From: Aporhodopirellula sallentina SM41
GTDB lineage: Bacteria; Planctomycetota; Planctomycetia; Pirellulales; Pirellulaceae
Assembly: GCF_000346505.1 (NCBI RefSeq)
Contig: NZ_ANOH01000346.1
Coordinates: 1-33,858 of the forward strand
Length of the DNA: 33,858 nucleotides
Direction of reading: 5' to 3'
A program made the translations under genes and the position numbers. Position 1 is the stretch's first letter, and each line of letters opens with the position of its first letter. Below, piece after piece: positions 1 to 20,336 of this stretch. The notes beneath the pieces are model-generated. The model did no database searches. It saw nothing but the letters and a program-made list of their open reading frames with translations, and was not told the DNA's origin.

Positions 1-791
1 GAGACCGACTGGCTGGACAGAAGATCGGAGATTTTGCCATTTGTTTCGCGACTTACCCAGTCGTTAATCGTCTTGACTGCCTGCGCCGTGTTTTTCTTGA
101 AGTCAACGTCGGAAGTGAAGCCGGCAAAGCCCGTCTTGATCTGTTCCAAGAACACTTTGTCAACTGGATATCCTTTCTGAAACCACAGCGCGTTTGCCGT
201 CGTCAAGTATTCAACGGCGGTCAGCGGCACCTCTTTCTCCTTTACCGTTCCATCCTTCGTGCAATACGACTGGATGGTGATCACTTCGCCAGCACTATCG
301 ATCGCTTTCGACCATTCCTCTTCGGTACGTACCGGTTTTCCGTTGACAGAGAAAATCAGGTCGTCTGGTTTCAATCCAGACTTGTCCGCCGCGGACCCTG
401 CAACAACAAGCGTTACGAGCAAGCCGCGGCCATCGTTCTCACGGCATTGGGCTCCGAAAATGGGAGTGCCGCTGTCACCACGTGGTGTCAGCCCAGCAAA
501 TACCTCGTGTGCTTCTGTTGGAGAAGCATCCAGATGCAGGACCGAGGCCATCTGGATTGCGGTTTCACCGGCAGTGCCGGAGTAGGTCATGCCGAGGGCT
601 GTTGCCAGGCTGGCGGGTGAATAGACGATATTATCGTTGCCGTCGAGTCCCTTGAAGATGTCATTGGCGAACTCGTTTACAGTCGTCGCGATATCGCCGC
701 TGTCATTCGCCCTCATCGATGGAGCGGACAGAACAACTGCGACGGCGACCAGCGTCAACAACAATGTGGGGCGGCTTATGGGCGTATGCAT
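1..791 (-). CDS. Exported serpin with an inserted PDZ domain (C-terminus outside window)
   Basis: Translated by hand from ATG at 791; 263 residues are present and the frame runs off the left edge. Residues 1-28 form a signal peptide (LLLTLVAVAVVLSA core). Residues 34-90 match the serpin N-terminal helices, including NIVYSPASLATALGMTYSGTAG, of which the diagnostic piece is YSPASLATAL (58-67). Residues about 108-192 are a PDZ domain (GSAADKSGLKPDDLIFSVNG, 132-151). Serpin sequence then resumes: TTANALWFQKGY (197-208), DVDF (228-231), INDWVSRETNGKISDLL (242-258). The PDZ therefore sits where helix D normally lies, between helix C and strand s2A. Serpins are suicide inhibitors of serine proteases and sometimes of caspases or papain-like enzymes. 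The reactive-centre loop that decides inhibition lies outside the window, so activity is unknown. It starts 22 bp after the caspase gene, with no strong Shine-Dalgarno, suggesting co-transcription. The serpin and PDZ identifications are strong; the physiological role is inferred. Confidence 0.88.
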   Translation of the reverse strand, partial: MHTPISRPTLLLTLVAVAVVLSAPSMRANDSGDIATTVNEFANDIFKGLDGNDNIVYSPASLATALGMTYSGTAGETAIQMASVLHLDASPTEAHEVFAGLTPRGDSGTPIFGAQCRENDGRGLLVTLVVAGSAADKSGLKPDDLIFSVNGKPVRTEEEWSKAIDSAGEVITIQSYCTKDGTVKEKEVPLTAVEYLTTANALWFQKGYPVDKVFLEQIKTGFAGFTSDVDFKKNTAQAVKTINDWVSRETNGKISDLLSSQSV

Positions 792-813: not shown

Positions 814-1875
814 TTACGGATTCAAGTTCGCAGTCACAGTTGCGGTGCGGTTCTCGTTTGGGTCATGGACTTTCAAGGTCATTTGGTGAGGTGAACTATC
901 CACCGCGTTGCTGTACGAACTCTCGGAGCTCAGGGCAGTGCCGTTGATTTCGAGAATATGATCACCGACTTCAAGTCCTGCATGAAATGCAGGGCTAAGT
1001 GGGATTACCTGCGTCACGACCAAGGTGCTACTCTTGGCTTCGGCTTTCAAACCCAAGCGAGGCGTCAACACGAACGGGTGAACGGTTTGTTTGAATTGGT
1101 CTGGTTCGCGGTCGCCGTTCGTGTCGATCCCCTTGCTCTTGGTGACTCGTGAGAAGTCGTTTTGAACTTCTTGTTCCAAATCGCTGATGATCTCCTGCCA
1201 GCCGATGTTTTGCCGGGCGTTCCGATCGAGATACCTCACGAATGGATACGTAAAGAGTGACCCCTTTCCGTCGCCACGCGTGATCGATAATTCGCCCGGT
1301 TTTGAGGACGTTATGTCGATGAAGCCACTCCGCTTAAACAACAAGTGGTCCAGGATTGGTGCAATCTGTGCGGCTTTGACTTCGGCGTAGACGGCTTTGG
1401 GTACCCCCTGGAAGCGTGCGCCTCCGGCGCAACAGTCCGTTACCAGTAAAGCCGACCTTGGCTCTTGGTTGATGAGAGCAAGTTGCAATTCGCTGCGCAG
1501 CAGTTCCTGATGGTTTGGCAGGCTCAGGAAGTGCCCTTTGGCTTTGTCGAACGCGCCGTGACCGCTGTAGTAAAAGACAACGGAGTCCTGTCGAGGCGTC
1601 ACCTGAAGTGAATTCACTGCACCAAGAATCGAATCGCGGCTGAGTGGATCCTTAAGCACATGGATTCGCAATTGGTTGGCCGGCACATGTTTCTTGAATA
1701 GTTGCTCAACACCATTCCGGTCGGCAACGATGTCGCCACCCAGTCCGGATGCGGGCGTTGTGTCGGCAGCGATGACGACATGAAGCGTCGCCCCATCGCT
1801 GGGGGCAGCCGTCAGGATTCCGGCCGCGAGTACGAAGATCGACAAGCATCGGGGTACGAAATCAGAGCGGTCCAT
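814..1875 (-). CDS. Exported caspase-like (C14/metacaspase-type) peptidase with C-terminal PDZ domain
   Basis: 353 residues. An N-terminal signal peptide (about 1-29, FVLAAGILTAAPSDGA) places it outside the cytoplasm. The caspase-fold p20-like region spans about 30-220: FYYSGHG carries the likely catalytic His106 and VTDCCAGG the likely catalytic Cys149, where DSCHSG is more usual. Residues 251-259 (DTNGDREPD) look like a calcium-binding DxNxDxxxD loop, of interest because many metacaspases need calcium. Residues about 275-350 are a PDZ domain (SPAFHAGLEVGDHILEINGT). C14 enzymes cut after basic or acidic residues; which applies here cannot be told. A GAGGA Shine-Dalgarno at 1883-1887 supports the ATG at 1875. 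The serpin-PDZ gene follows 22 bp downstream, probably in one transcript. Planctomycetes often carry caspase-like proteins. Joint action with the serpin is inferred. Confidence 0.88.
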   Translation of the reverse strand: MDRSDFVPRCLSIFVLAAGILTAAPSDGATLHVVIAADTTPASGLGGDIVADRNGVEQLFKKHVPANQLRIHVLKDPLSRDSILGAVNSLQVTPRQDSVVFYYSGHGAFDKAKGHFLSLPNHQELLRSELQLALINQEPRSALLVTDCCAGGARFQGVPKAVYAEVKAAQIAPILDHLLFKRSGFIDITSSKPGELSITRGDGKGSLFTYPFVRYLDRNARQNIGWQEIISDLEQEVQNDFSRVTKSKGIDTNGDREPDQFKQTVHPFVLTPRLGLKAEAKSSTLVVTQVIPLSPAFHAGLEVGDHILEINGTALSSESSYSNAVDSSPHQMTLKVHDPNENRTATVTANLNP

Positions 1876-1952: not shown

Positions 1953-1991
1953 AAAAATGAGGGTACGCGGGTAGCAGATCCACCCGCGTAC
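1953..1991 (-). terminator. Rho-independent terminator after the DUF4384-like gene
   Basis: A perfect 10-bp inverted repeat (GTACGCGGGT at 1963-1972, ACCCGCGTAC at 1982-1991) with a 9-nt loop. On the minus strand it is followed by a run of five T (1953-1957). It lies 17 bp past the stop of the minus-strand gene ending at 2009, so that gene is probably a separate transcription unit from, or only leaks into, the caspase gene. Confidence 0.85.
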
Positions 1992-2008: not shown

Positions 2009-2989
2009 TCAGTCTTTGAAGAACGTCAACTCGATTTGAGCGATGTTGCCTGGACCCATCATGACCGTGGAAACATCGTCGATTCTGTCTGGTACCGGGG
2101 AAACGCTGGGCGGTGCGGAAGGCGGAGGGCCTGCGACCAGTCGTAGCTTAGCCATTGATGCTAAGGACGGATCATTCTGAAGAGCAACAAACATTTCCTG
2201 GGTTTGTTGCATGGGAGCGCCCTTGAGAGTCCCTCCAACTCCAACAACTCCGCCAGCTCCCGCCAAGGCTCCAGCCGAGGCTGCCGCCGTGGCCGATTGG
2301 GACGTTTGCTGAACTTGAGCCGAGGCGTTTGCCATCGTCGACACACTCACTTGAGAGTTCGGCGGTAAGGTGTTAGCGCTGATAACAGCCGTCGCAGTTG
2401 CGGTCGCGGTTGCACCGCCATTAACAGGCAGAATGTTTGCGTCAGCTCGAACAAGGATAATCGACATTTGCTCATCACGAAGATCGTCGTCCATCTCGAT
2501 CATGACGGGGAACTTGTAAGGAGCCCCTGGCATGATGGTCGAGAAGGTTGATGGGAACTGGGGGTCAGGAGAAATCTGCTTGGACTTCGGACGACCCTCT
2601 GGGTAGTTCTGGAAGAAGGAAAGCTGAAGCGGCACAGCCGTATCCAACCATAGATGGAATCTCTGTTTTCGTTCCCACTTGTGCTTCGTCAAGTTGACGT
2701 ATGGTCCAGGTGTTCCATTTGGGTTGACCAATTGGCCCCAGACCTTTACCGAGATACAACCGGGGTTCGGCGGCGTTGGTGTCGGCTGGACCAGCGTGAA
2801 TTTTGGGTCGCCTCCCTTGATTGCCGTCTGGACTGATTTGATGGCCCCACTGCTGTTGGCCGTGAGTGTGTTTTGCGACATCTCGGTGTGTAGCTTCAAG
2901 AGTGCCGCGCGATCATCACCCCGTGCGAGATTCGGGGCAATCACCACCGACAGGATTTGCAGGACAAGCAGATGTTTCAAAACGTTCAC
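2009..2989 (-). CDS. Exported protein with DUF4384-like domain and Ala/Gly-rich tail
   Basis: I prefer the GTG start at 2989 because a GGAG motif (2998-3001) sits 8 nt upstream; an in-frame TTG at 3010 would add seven residues. The resulting 326-residue protein begins with a signal peptide (MNVLKHLLVLQILSVVIAP) ending near LARG. Residues about 75-185 contain WGQLVN, a KQRFHLWLDT strand, PLQLSFFQNY and a late IILVRAD strand. This resembles DUF4384, a beta-rich domain often found with or fused to bacterial caspase-like peptidases; that assignment is from memory of the family pattern. The middle is Thr/Ala repeats and an Ala/Gly-rich hydrophobic stretch, and the end is proline-rich. No catalytic motif was seen. 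Its place upstream of the caspase on the same strand fits an accessory role in the same process. Confidence 0.75.
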   Translation of the reverse strand: MNVLKHLLVLQILSVVIAPNLARGDDRAALLKLHTEMSQNTLTANSSGAIKSVQTAIKGGDPKFTLVQPTPTPPNPGCISVKVWGQLVNPNGTPGPYVNLTKHKWERKQRFHLWLDTAVPLQLSFFQNYPEGRPKSKQISPDPQFPSTFSTIMPGAPYKFPVMIEMDDDLRDEQMSIILVRADANILPVNGGATATATATAVISANTLPPNSQVSVSTMANASAQVQQTSQSATAAASAGALAGAGGVVGVGGTLKGAPMQQTQEMFVALQNDPSLASMAKLRLVAGPPPSAPPSVSPVPDRIDDVSTVMMGPGNIAQIELTFFKD

Positions 2990-2997
2990 GGTTCTAA

Positions 2998-3001
2998 CTC
3001 C
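2998..3001 (-). promoter_or_regulatory. Shine-Dalgarno choosing the GTG start at 2989
   Basis: GGAG on the minus strand, 8 nt before GTG. The upstream TTG alternative at 3010 has an AGGAAA-like stretch further away but would add an uncharged prefix before the signal peptide. The GTG choice gives a textbook n-region and h-region. Confidence 0.55.
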
Positions 3002-3128
3002 AAGTGTCAAAGGAAATTAAAGCCGACCATCAACGTGATGCACGGCCAAATTAAGCCACCCGATGACACCACCAGGAAGCCGTCAGAGCCTCGCCACGTC
3101 AAAGGTACATGACGACCGACTCGCGGAT

Positions 3129-18205: not shown

Positions 18206-18841
18206 CTAGAACTCCGGAAACAAATCGTCGCCTTCCCCTCCTTTCTTATTATCGTCCGGTCGAGGAAACGCTCGAGACTTCGGCTCTGCATTTAGAAAGG
18301 CATCGACTTGAGCGCGAGAAAACCTAAGCTGTCTTCGCACTTCTCCCTTTCCGACATTCCGCCCTTCCAATTCCCCACGATCAAACGCTGACCTTACAGC
18401 ATCTCGGGAAATCCGCAGATACCTGGATGCGGCGGCGACATCGAAGACTTCAGGCCACAGAACGCCCCCCTCCTTCGCCAACTCAACTGCCTCATTGAAC
18501 AACTCCGTTTTAACCTCTTCAATCGCCAAGTACCTCTTTGCTTCGCTAAGCCAGTCAGCCGCGTCCTGTACGCGATACATACCTGCAGCCGACTGCACAT
18601 GAAGATAGCCTTCCGCTAGGAACTCTACCTTGGGATGATCTTCCTCCATCAATTTGCGAAGATAATCCGCGATTTCGTCGATCATGCGGGAGTACCGGGA
18701 GTGGTAGTCTTGTTCGCCCTGACACTTCAGCCGGCCTTCGGTATCCAGACCATTTGCCAACCTCGCAAGAGCATATGCATCGAAGAAGCAGTCAATCACT
18801 GAATCAAACTGCTCAAGCTGATCTGTAGTCATCACAATCAT
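18206..18841 (-). CDS. Excisionase-like protein with C-terminal HTH
   Basis: 211 residues. The N-terminal 130 residues are helical and unrecognised. Residues 131-184 form a MerR/excisionase-type winged helix-turn-helix (VFDVAAASRYLRISRDAVR, then an R-x-Q-L-R-F strand and SRAQVDAFL). The gene begins 12 bp after the recombinase stop, so the two are an operon. The likely job is a recombination directionality factor or repressor for the recombinase. A start three codons in (MTTDQ) is equally possible. The basic, disordered tail ends in DDLFPEF. The family was not recognised beyond the HTH. Confidence 0.78.
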   Translation of the reverse strand: MIVMTTDQLEQFDSVIDCFFDAYALARLANGLDTEGRLKCQGEQDYHSRYSRMIDEIADYLRKLMEEDHPKVEFLAEGYLHVQSAAGMYRVQDAADWLSEAKRYLAIEEVKTELFNEAVELAKEGGVLWPEVFDVAAASRYLRISRDAVRSAFDRGELEGRNVGKGEVRRQLRFSRAQVDAFLNAEPKSRAFPRPDDNKKGGEGDDLFPEF

Positions 18842-18853
18842 TTGAGCCTCACA

Positions 18854-20014
18854 TTACAAGCCGGCTTCGGGCCGTTCACTTAGAATCCACATTCGCACAT
18901 GATCGCAGGCTTTGACGACACGCTCCCTTTCGATGAATTCGCGGTAGTGTGCAGACATTCCGCTGTCCAGATGCCCCATGACGTGATCGACGGCAATCTG
19001 ATCCCCACATCCCGAAGCAATGGTTGCGAACGTATGCCTGAGAGAATAGAAGCCCACATTCTTTTGATAGCAGCCAACAGTTCTCGCTAACAATCGAAAT
19101 TGTTCGCCTATTGAATCTCGATTCGTACCATTGCGATCCACCCAGAGCTTCCCTGTTCGGGTCAGAAACACATGATCGCCCGCGGTTCTGTTTTTAAATG
19201 CGTGAGATTGCCCATCGAGTACAGCCCTGATCGCAGCGATTGTTTCTGGCCACAACCATGCAGCCCTATCTTTTCCGGTCTTTCCACGTGGACGTGAAAG
19301 CCAACACTCATCCCAGTCAATCCAACTTTCACGAAGCTCTGAACAATCGTCATTTCCGTAAGCTGCGTTTAGCCCCAGCCAGATCATCGCGTGCATCTGC
19401 GGGCGAGCTTCCTGCAGTAGCGACCAAATCTGATCTGCTGAAAACAGTTTCTTCGGCTTGTCAGCCTTCTCATTGCGCATCGCACGCTTCGTCGGCACGG
19501 AGAAAAGCTGGCCGTATTTTGGCGGTTCTGACAACAGATCATTTTGCCACGCCCATTTAAAAATGGAGCGGATCCCCAAAATGTGATTCCTACGGCTTCG
19601 CAATGTCCACGCCTCAGGAAAGCTTGCCTTGATCGCAGCAAAGTCTTCCTTTCGGATAGTCGCAATCTCTCTCCTGGCACCGAAATGCTTTAGCAGATAA
19701 ACACAGTAGCCTCGCACCTCTCGCGCGTGAGCCGGCGATACGTCCCCCATACTCGCCCGCCTGTTTTGCTCCTTCTGGTACCGATTGCACATCACTTTGA
19801 CTGTGATACTCTCGGGCAAATGGGCCGGCTCGCCGCGTTCTAGCCTTGCCTTAATTTCGAGCCAATTCCGCTCAGCCGCCGCCGGATCGCCCCATGGGCC
19901 GCAATTGTACTTTTTGCCACCAAAGCTCTTGCACCAGTAGCCTCGGGCGTGTGCGTAAAGTGGAAAGTCAGGGCGAGGCTTCTCTGGTTTCTTCGACTGT
20001 TGTTTCGCGACCAT
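18854..20014 (-). CDS. Tyrosine recombinase (phage-type integrase), planctomycete variant
   Basis: 386 residues from ATG 20014 (MVAKQQSKKPEKPRPDFPLY); a start at 20041 adds nine residues, but the KKPEKPxPDFPL opening fits this family better. There is a SAM-like core-binding domain at 65-175 and a catalytic domain at 190-375. Catalytic landmarks: RGKTGK (Lys245), YSLRHTF (Arg326), MGH (His348) and the nucleophile Tyr357 in SAHYRE. The usual box I Arg (GLR) is replaced by GNDDCSEL (Asn221), and the HxxR histidine by Tyr323. It sits 250 bp beyond the tRNA-Gln 3' end, the usual place for an element that integrates into a tRNA gene. Co-transcribed with the excisionase-like gene. Confidence 0.88.
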   Translation of the reverse strand: MVAKQQSKKPEKPRPDFPLYAHARGYWCKSFGGKKYNCGPWGDPAAAERNWLEIKARLERGEPAHLPESITVKVMCNRYQKEQNRRASMGDVSPAHAREVRGYCVYLLKHFGARREIATIRKEDFAAIKASFPEAWTLRSRRNHILGIRSIFKWAWQNDLLSEPPKYGQLFSVPTKRAMRNEKADKPKKLFSADQIWSLLQEARPQMHAMIWLGLNAAYGNDDCSELRESWIDWDECWLSRPRGKTGKDRAAWLWPETIAAIRAVLDGQSHAFKNRTAGDHVFLTRTGKLWVDRNGTNRDSIGEQFRLLARTVGCYQKNVGFYSLRHTFATIASGCGDQIAVDHVMGHLDSGMSAHYREFIERERVVKACDHVRMWILSERPEAGL

Positions 20015-20264
20015 AGTCCCGTTGCAATAAAGCGTCAGCAAATAACTGCAATGCGTCGGGCGTCTTCCTCGGTCACACGCGTAGCGTGATCATTTCCAGA
20101 CCGAGACTTGACTACATGCGAAGAATCCCGAGCAACGATCCTGCCAGGATAAAGGACACCAAAAGAGAGCGTCAACCAAGTCGCCACCGGGGTGCCGGAG
20201 GGTGCCAACAACAGCTGGCCACCAAAAACCGCGATTTTCGAAGGAAAAACAACCGTTTATTAAG

Positions 20265-20336
20265 CTACCCCGCTAGGACTCGAACCTAGAATGACTGAAC
20301 CAAAATCAGTAGTGTTGCCGATTACACCACGGGGTA
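20265..20336 (-). tRNA. trnQ: tRNA-Gln (UUG)
   Basis: 72 nt folding into a full cloverleaf: acceptor TACCCCG/CGGGGTA (U1-A72 as in bacterial tRNA-Gln), D stem GTGT/ACAC, anticodon stem ACTGA/TCAGT with loop TTTTGGT (anticodon TTG), T stem CTAGG/CCTAG with loop TTCGAGT, discriminator G. CCA is not encoded. Its 3' end faces the recombinase gene, making it the probable attachment site. Confidence 0.95.

Follow-up and report, generated by a model that had tools for sequence, protein, structure and literature searches.

A planctomycete serpin with a PDZ domain between helix D and strand s2A, beside a caspase-like gene

Results

Serpin-PDZ gene and its domains

The window (the whole stretch of 33,858 nucleotides analysed here) is the complete contig C346 of the Aporhodopirellula sallentina SM41 genome, an assembly of 8.19 Mb in 491 contigs. 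A single stop-free frame on the minus strand starts with an ATG at 791 and continues for 263 residues to the contig edge. The gene extends past the start of this contig and is thus truncated in the assembly, leaving only about half of the serpin (Table 1). Pfam Serpin (PF00079) scored 99.6 bits against a cut-off of 27, its match split into two stretches at profile positions 3–70 and 81–146, and between them PDZ_6 (45.6 bits; cut-off 27), PDZ (37.7; 23.2) and PDZ_2 (30.1; 27) were all matched. Serpin sequence resumes in register after the PDZ domain. The two-stretch match, the single frame and the AlphaFold model confirm the initial annotation, which had recognized serpin sequence on both sides of a complete PDZ domain. 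Given its signal-peptide-like start, the PDZ-serpin is predicted to be exported.

Table 1. Coordinates of the serpin-PDZ gene, the caspase-like gene and their parts within the window.
Feature	Position	Strand	Basis
5' part of the PDZ-containing serpin gene (263 codons, no stop before the contig edge)	3..791	-	Frame, Pfam
Signal-peptide-like start, residues 1-28	708..791	-	Read by eye
Serpin part 1, residues 34-101: helices A, B, C and shortened D	489..692	-	Pfam, alignment, AlphaFold
Helix D as modelled, residues 91-101	489..521	-	AlphaFold
PDZ domain, HtrA type, residues 111-190	222..461	-	Pfam, AlphaFold, structure matches
Serpin part 2, residues 194-260: strand s2A, helix E, strand s1A, helix F	12..212	-	Pfam, AlphaFold
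Caspase-like protein carrying a C-terminal PDZ; gap of 22 bases to the serpin gene downstream	814..1875	-	Frame, Pfam
PDZ of caspase-like protein	838..1062	-	Pfam
Caspase domain PF00656, SGHG (H106) and DCC (C148/C149)	1141..1722	-	Pfam, alignment
Terminator-like stem, 12 pairs, T-rich tail, between caspase gene and gene 2009-3010	1963..1991	-	Upstream of caspase gene

Position of the PDZ domain

The spacing between the SPxS and ANxLW motifs was 141 residues in the window serpin versus 59–61 residues in 75 of the 135 serpins measured. These 135 came from 144 distinct serpin frames; some of the nine unmeasured frames were read by eye, and the long values of two frames (L120 and L096) proved on reading to be pattern errors. 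Within a smaller frame set, spacing was measured in 72 of 83 frames.

The window protein was modelled with AlphaFold from a 27-row alignment (A3) comprising the window protein, 14 serpins and 12 PDZ fragments. A3 was the best-scoring of 250 random row subsets and was picked by alignment cleanliness before any modelling; about 20 residues of its serpin rows remain within the PDZ columns. The model had a mean pLDDT of 65 and a pTM of 0.51, with PDZ blocks at 82–93 and serpin blocks at 42–83. Serpin elements were named by their order, which we take to correspond to the canonical one. The modelled first half contained helix A (31–48), helix B (59–72), helix C (75–84) and helix D (91–101), followed by a first linker (101–110) with pLDDT below 50, PDZ elements (114–189), a short helix (192–198), strand s2A (201–205), helix E (212–221), strand s1A (225–229) and helix F (235–249). 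For the N-half, the serpin order of helices A to F and strand s2A was rebuilt around the insert, at low to middling confidence in the serpin blocks. Foldseek serpin matches to the whole model had TM-scores by query of 0.35–0.45 in the rows shown, values that stay within what half of a serpin allows.

With the PDZ domain left out of the alignment, the window serpin lacked ten residues present in the others, corresponding to the end of helix D and the next loop. The modelled helix D and these ten absent residues indicate that helix D was shortened, not replaced. By model and alignment, the PDZ domain is predicted to replace about ten residues between the shortened helix D and strand s2A. The earlier proposal of a PDZ domain in place of the helix-D region was thus right about the neighbourhood, near helix D and s2A by profiles and AlphaFold, but helix D itself is kept in shortened form.

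Properties of the PDZ domain

The PDZ fold was complete and modelled at high confidence, and its closest solved structures were HtrA-family PDZ domains. The carboxylate-binding loop of PDZ domains is of the hydrophobic-G-hydrophobic type, and IFGA was read at the expected place of this loop. Within the genome, the next-best relative of the PDZ piece had 41% protein identity. Recent copying from the PDZ of the neighbouring caspase-like gene was rejected as an origin, as that PDZ scored 23 bits and a PDZ protein encoded on contig C275 scored higher, at 36 bits. G+C content was 0.557 in the PDZ piece, 0.568 and 0.493 in the serpin parts, and 0.555 in the window.

Serpin C-terminal half

A C-half query taken from a related serpin had no match in the window's genome at E 10. 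As a control, the same query matched eight of eight serpin-bearing genomes (best E 3.4e-65 or lower) and zero of two same-genus genomes. The first 130 bases of the contig had no real second place in the genome, the other five matches being 15–18 bases long with E of at least 1.7. Neither homology nor contig-end overlap located the hinge and reactive-centre loop in the assembly, which counts against the docking role proposed below; as a consequence, the reactive-centre loop, inhibition and target are unreadable. Full-length planctomycete relatives had inhibitory-type hinges, e.g., EEGTEAAAATG, and the missing 3' half probably encodes, like theirs, a hinge and reactive-centre loop of normal type.

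Search for further PDZ-serpins

Searches with the window protein covered 98 relatives, 241 family genomes and 392 phylum genomes, with at most 10 (241 genomes) and at most six (392 genomes) candidates scored per genome. A profile built with the window protein was searched in 396 order, 372 phylum and 377 class genomes at limits of 1e-25, 1e-22 and 1e-25, respectively. Matches occurred in 84, 102 and at least 149 genomes, counting the window's own, with at most seven, eight and eight candidates scored per genome; the genome sets overlap. Among the matches listed for the 98, 241 and 392 genomes, only the window itself matched the window protein end to end. No second PDZ-serpin appeared among the matches listed in the six overlapping sets of 98–396 genomes.

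Besides the window, 13 places among the matches listed had profile matches of at least 570 bases. All 13 were read: a helical hairpin was present in 12 (recognized by eye, with a model for one), L192 contained a low-complexity insert, and none contained a PDZ domain. The best 80 of at least 531 confirmed loci in the genome_contigs collection included no PDZ-serpin, and a single-protein scan of that collection gave 34 stretches with no relatives. Seven longer partial matches (L019, L028, L213–L217) were PDZ proteins with no serpin match at E 10. Among the matches listed in 12 same-genus genomes, no serpin was seen; these matches mapped to the PDZ part or its surroundings, and G006 gave the longest of them (query 57–197), a PDZ protein without a serpin match. 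On contig G392:C687 the serpin match ended after profile position 61, the contig end falling before the insertion site. The frame there (L218:357–1667, plus strand) runs from a sigma-factor-like N-part (by eye) into a serpin N-part and ends at the contig end.

The initial annotation knew of no described serpin-PDZ insertion, and none was found among the matches listed in the open-access literature, within the text available from each source. According to the available text of PMC8233489, a large serpin phylogeny excluded nonconserved inserts and much longer sequences by design, so PDZ-serpins would be missed there.

Hairpin serpins with an insert at the same junction

Planctomycete serpins at L018, L182–L184, L188–L191 and L204–L208 contained an insert of about 50–75 residues at the helix D/s2A junction. 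The hairpin inserts consist of two long helices (by eye; modelled for L182 only). L182 was modelled as a whole serpin (mean pLDDT 85.5, pTM 0.83), with hairpin helices at 125–153 and 157–181 between helix D (106–117) and s2A (185–195). The presence of a hairpin at the same site in other planctomycete serpins indicates that the helix D/s2A junction is an insertion port.

A tree was built from the serpin part only, with the PDZ removed and eight hairpin serpins included. The eight hairpin serpins fell in a 13-tip group (support 0.94) that also held five members without a long insert and left the window serpin outside. The window serpin and the hairpin group fell together within a 21-tip group (support 0.82), the window serpin's nearer supports being 0.19–0.84. 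We read this as one port used twice by unrelated inserts; it is possible that one insert replaced the other. The window serpin had a long terminal branch (1.02 versus a median of 0.41), and of 19 N-half columns invariant in 15 other serpins it kept 17 and had changed two. The long branch and the two changed columns fit a new function, and they fit decay too.

Caspase-like neighbour

The gene upstream of the serpin encodes a predicted caspase-like protease, with PF00656 at 42.8 bits (cut-off 21.4). Its SGHG and D.C motifs, which we take to carry the catalytic His and Cys, were invariant between the window caspase and four relatives. The caspase-like and serpin genes have the same direction, with no terminator-like site in the 22 bases between them. 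Given this gap and the strong terminator-like stem upstream of the caspase-like gene, the two genes probably form a two-gene unit. Over the whole window, three terminator-like sites were found versus 3.1 in shuffles, and only the strength of the 1963–1991 stem counts. Beyond that stem, gene 2009–3010 (minus strand, TTG start) had no Pfam match and, among the loci compared, matched only copies of itself.

Related caspase genes at E 1e-20 occurred in four other genomes among the 98 searched. In all four, the next gene downstream was a DUF900 hydrolase, not a serpin, with a HEAT-like part above cut-off in one. The relative scanned with Pfam (L058) had the caspase domain above cut-off and PDZ_2 just below it (26.3 versus 27). 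This arrangement, a caspase-like gene whose C-part is PDZ-like and a DUF900 alpha/beta hydrolase gene after it, is a conserved pair (L058–L061, 4/4). None of 20 extended serpin neighbourhoods contained a relative of the window caspase by phmmer. The serpin-caspase pairing, suggested by gene order, was seen only in the window, which counts against the docking role proposed below. The caspase-like protein ends in -NLNP, which appears unlike a typical hydrophobic PDZ ligand.

Discussion

Proposed role of the PDZ-serpin

The reading proposed here, held at about even confidence, is that of an exported planctomycete serpin of ordinary type with an HtrA-type PDZ domain at helix D/s2A serving as a docking module for the inhibitor's target. 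The serpin would act as a suicide inhibitor, and the PDZ domain would bind a C-terminal peptide, keeping the inhibitor close to its protease or at a particular site. Docking of this kind would resemble the surface cofactor sites that speed other serpins by bridging, and it appears to be the most likely role of the PDZ domain. The first candidate target would be the caspase-like protease of the two-gene unit. In the available text of PMC10090351, a bacterial serpin is accelerated by heparin and DNA through bridging.

Comparison with known systems

Ordinary planctomycete and other bacterial serpins (PF00079, e.g., chloropin) share element order and most conserved N-half residues with the window serpin; they differ in spacing (59–61 in 75 of 135, against 141), and no PDZ domain was present in any that was read. 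The hairpin serpins of planctomycetes use the same helix D/s2A port, filled by two helices in place of a PDZ domain.

The vertebrate clade B CD-loop serpins (PAI-2, MENT, bomapin) resemble the window serpin in carrying, close to helix D, a functional insert that has an additional role. Their insert lies in the loop between helices C and D, whereas the window serpin has a complete domain after helix D. The extra functions of the clade B CD loop are reported not to affect inhibition (available text of PMC1308813).

The HtrA family supplies the closest solved PDZ structures to the insert. HtrA proteases have a trypsin-like domain, whereas Pfam found only serpin and PDZ in the available part of the window protein. 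CrmA and AtSerpin1 pair a serpin with a caspase-fold protease, as would the window, where the pairing is suggested by gene order alone. We know of no PDZ domain in CrmA or AtSerpin1. Serpins inhibit caspases and plant metacaspases (available text of PMC7863939 and PMC10609998), and SerpinE2 inhibits the PDZ-bearing protease HtrA1 and also binds HtrA1 without its PDZ (available text of PMC11026092). No PDZ domain within a serpin was found in the available text of PMC10090351, PMC1308813, PMC7863939, PMC10609998 or PMC11026092.

Alternative explanations

The initial annotation had raised both docking and peptide-coupled inhibition as possible roles. The PDZ domain might instead be an allosteric gate, its ligand shifting helix D and s2A, opening or closing sheet A and switching inhibition, as heparin does for antithrombin. 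In line with such a gate, the insert has direct junctions with both s2A and the C-terminal end of helix D, and heparin bound near helix D alters the central sheet and reactive loop of antithrombin, with helix D lengthened at both ends (available text of PMC10090351). Coupling cannot be shown from sequence, though, the low-confidence linker at 101–110 may be flexible, which speaks against tight coupling, and the hairpins at the same place indicate that the port takes unrelated inserts too. An allosteric gate is considered unlikely. A fuller version, a peptide-gated serpin whose PDZ domain would sense a C-terminal peptide (for instance from a cleaved or damaged exported protein) and switch inhibition of the co-transcribed caspase-PDZ protease via helix D and s2A, is rated somewhat lower again. 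If true, it would be a secreted bacterial protease/inhibitor pair with a PDZ domain on both partners.

A decaying or neutral fusion, in which a PDZ domain was inserted in frame by chance in one lineage and the serpin released from selection, is judged as unlikely as the simple gate. The single case among the matches listed in the genomes searched, the long branch, the two changed columns and the lack of any serpin among the matches listed in the 12 same-genus genomes would all suit decay. Set against these are a frame open throughout the available part, 17 retained invariant columns, a complete PDZ domain of high model confidence, and joins that fall at domain borders.

That the serpin is a non-inhibitory scaffold serving only to display the PDZ domain is improbable: non-inhibitory serpins exist, and one of them, HSP47, was among the Foldseek fold matches, but the full-length planctomycete relatives have inhibitory-type hinges. 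Least probable is an assembly chimera at the contig end, for although the second serpin part lies within the contig's last 212 bases, both joins are in frame with the serpin register kept, the genome has no near copy of either the PDZ domain or the contig end, and composition is even, with the G+C of the PDZ piece between those of its neighbours.

The window serpin places a complete peptide-binding domain beside the serpin part that carries allosteric control in antithrombin, and it would offer a natural template for asking if a ligand at helix D/s2A can switch a serpin. The PDZ and hairpin serpins together mark this junction as a port for at least two unrelated inserts. The locus is additionally a candidate, from bacteria, for the pairing of serpins with caspase-like proteases.

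Other observations

An integrase gene (18854–20041) and a helix-turn-helix protein gene (18206–18841) lie beside a tRNA-Gln gene (20264–20336) on the minus strand of the window. This region (18206–20336) resembles one end of an integrated element; a search of the window for direct repeats of at least 18 bases found none. Two further serpin architectures were seen at other loci. At L066:6350–8605 (minus strand), a single chain combines a serpin with four DUF4214 stretches that come after it. At L185:3222–5468 (minus strand, G724:C2), a planctomycete serpin contained a pretoxin-HINT domain (PF07591, 57.2 bits, residues 409–539) inserted past the hinge EQGTTAAAATEVELA, within the reactive-centre loop, together with a dockerin match just under cut-off (21.9 versus 22.9). 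If true, the presence within the bait loop of a domain that may cleave itself would be striking.
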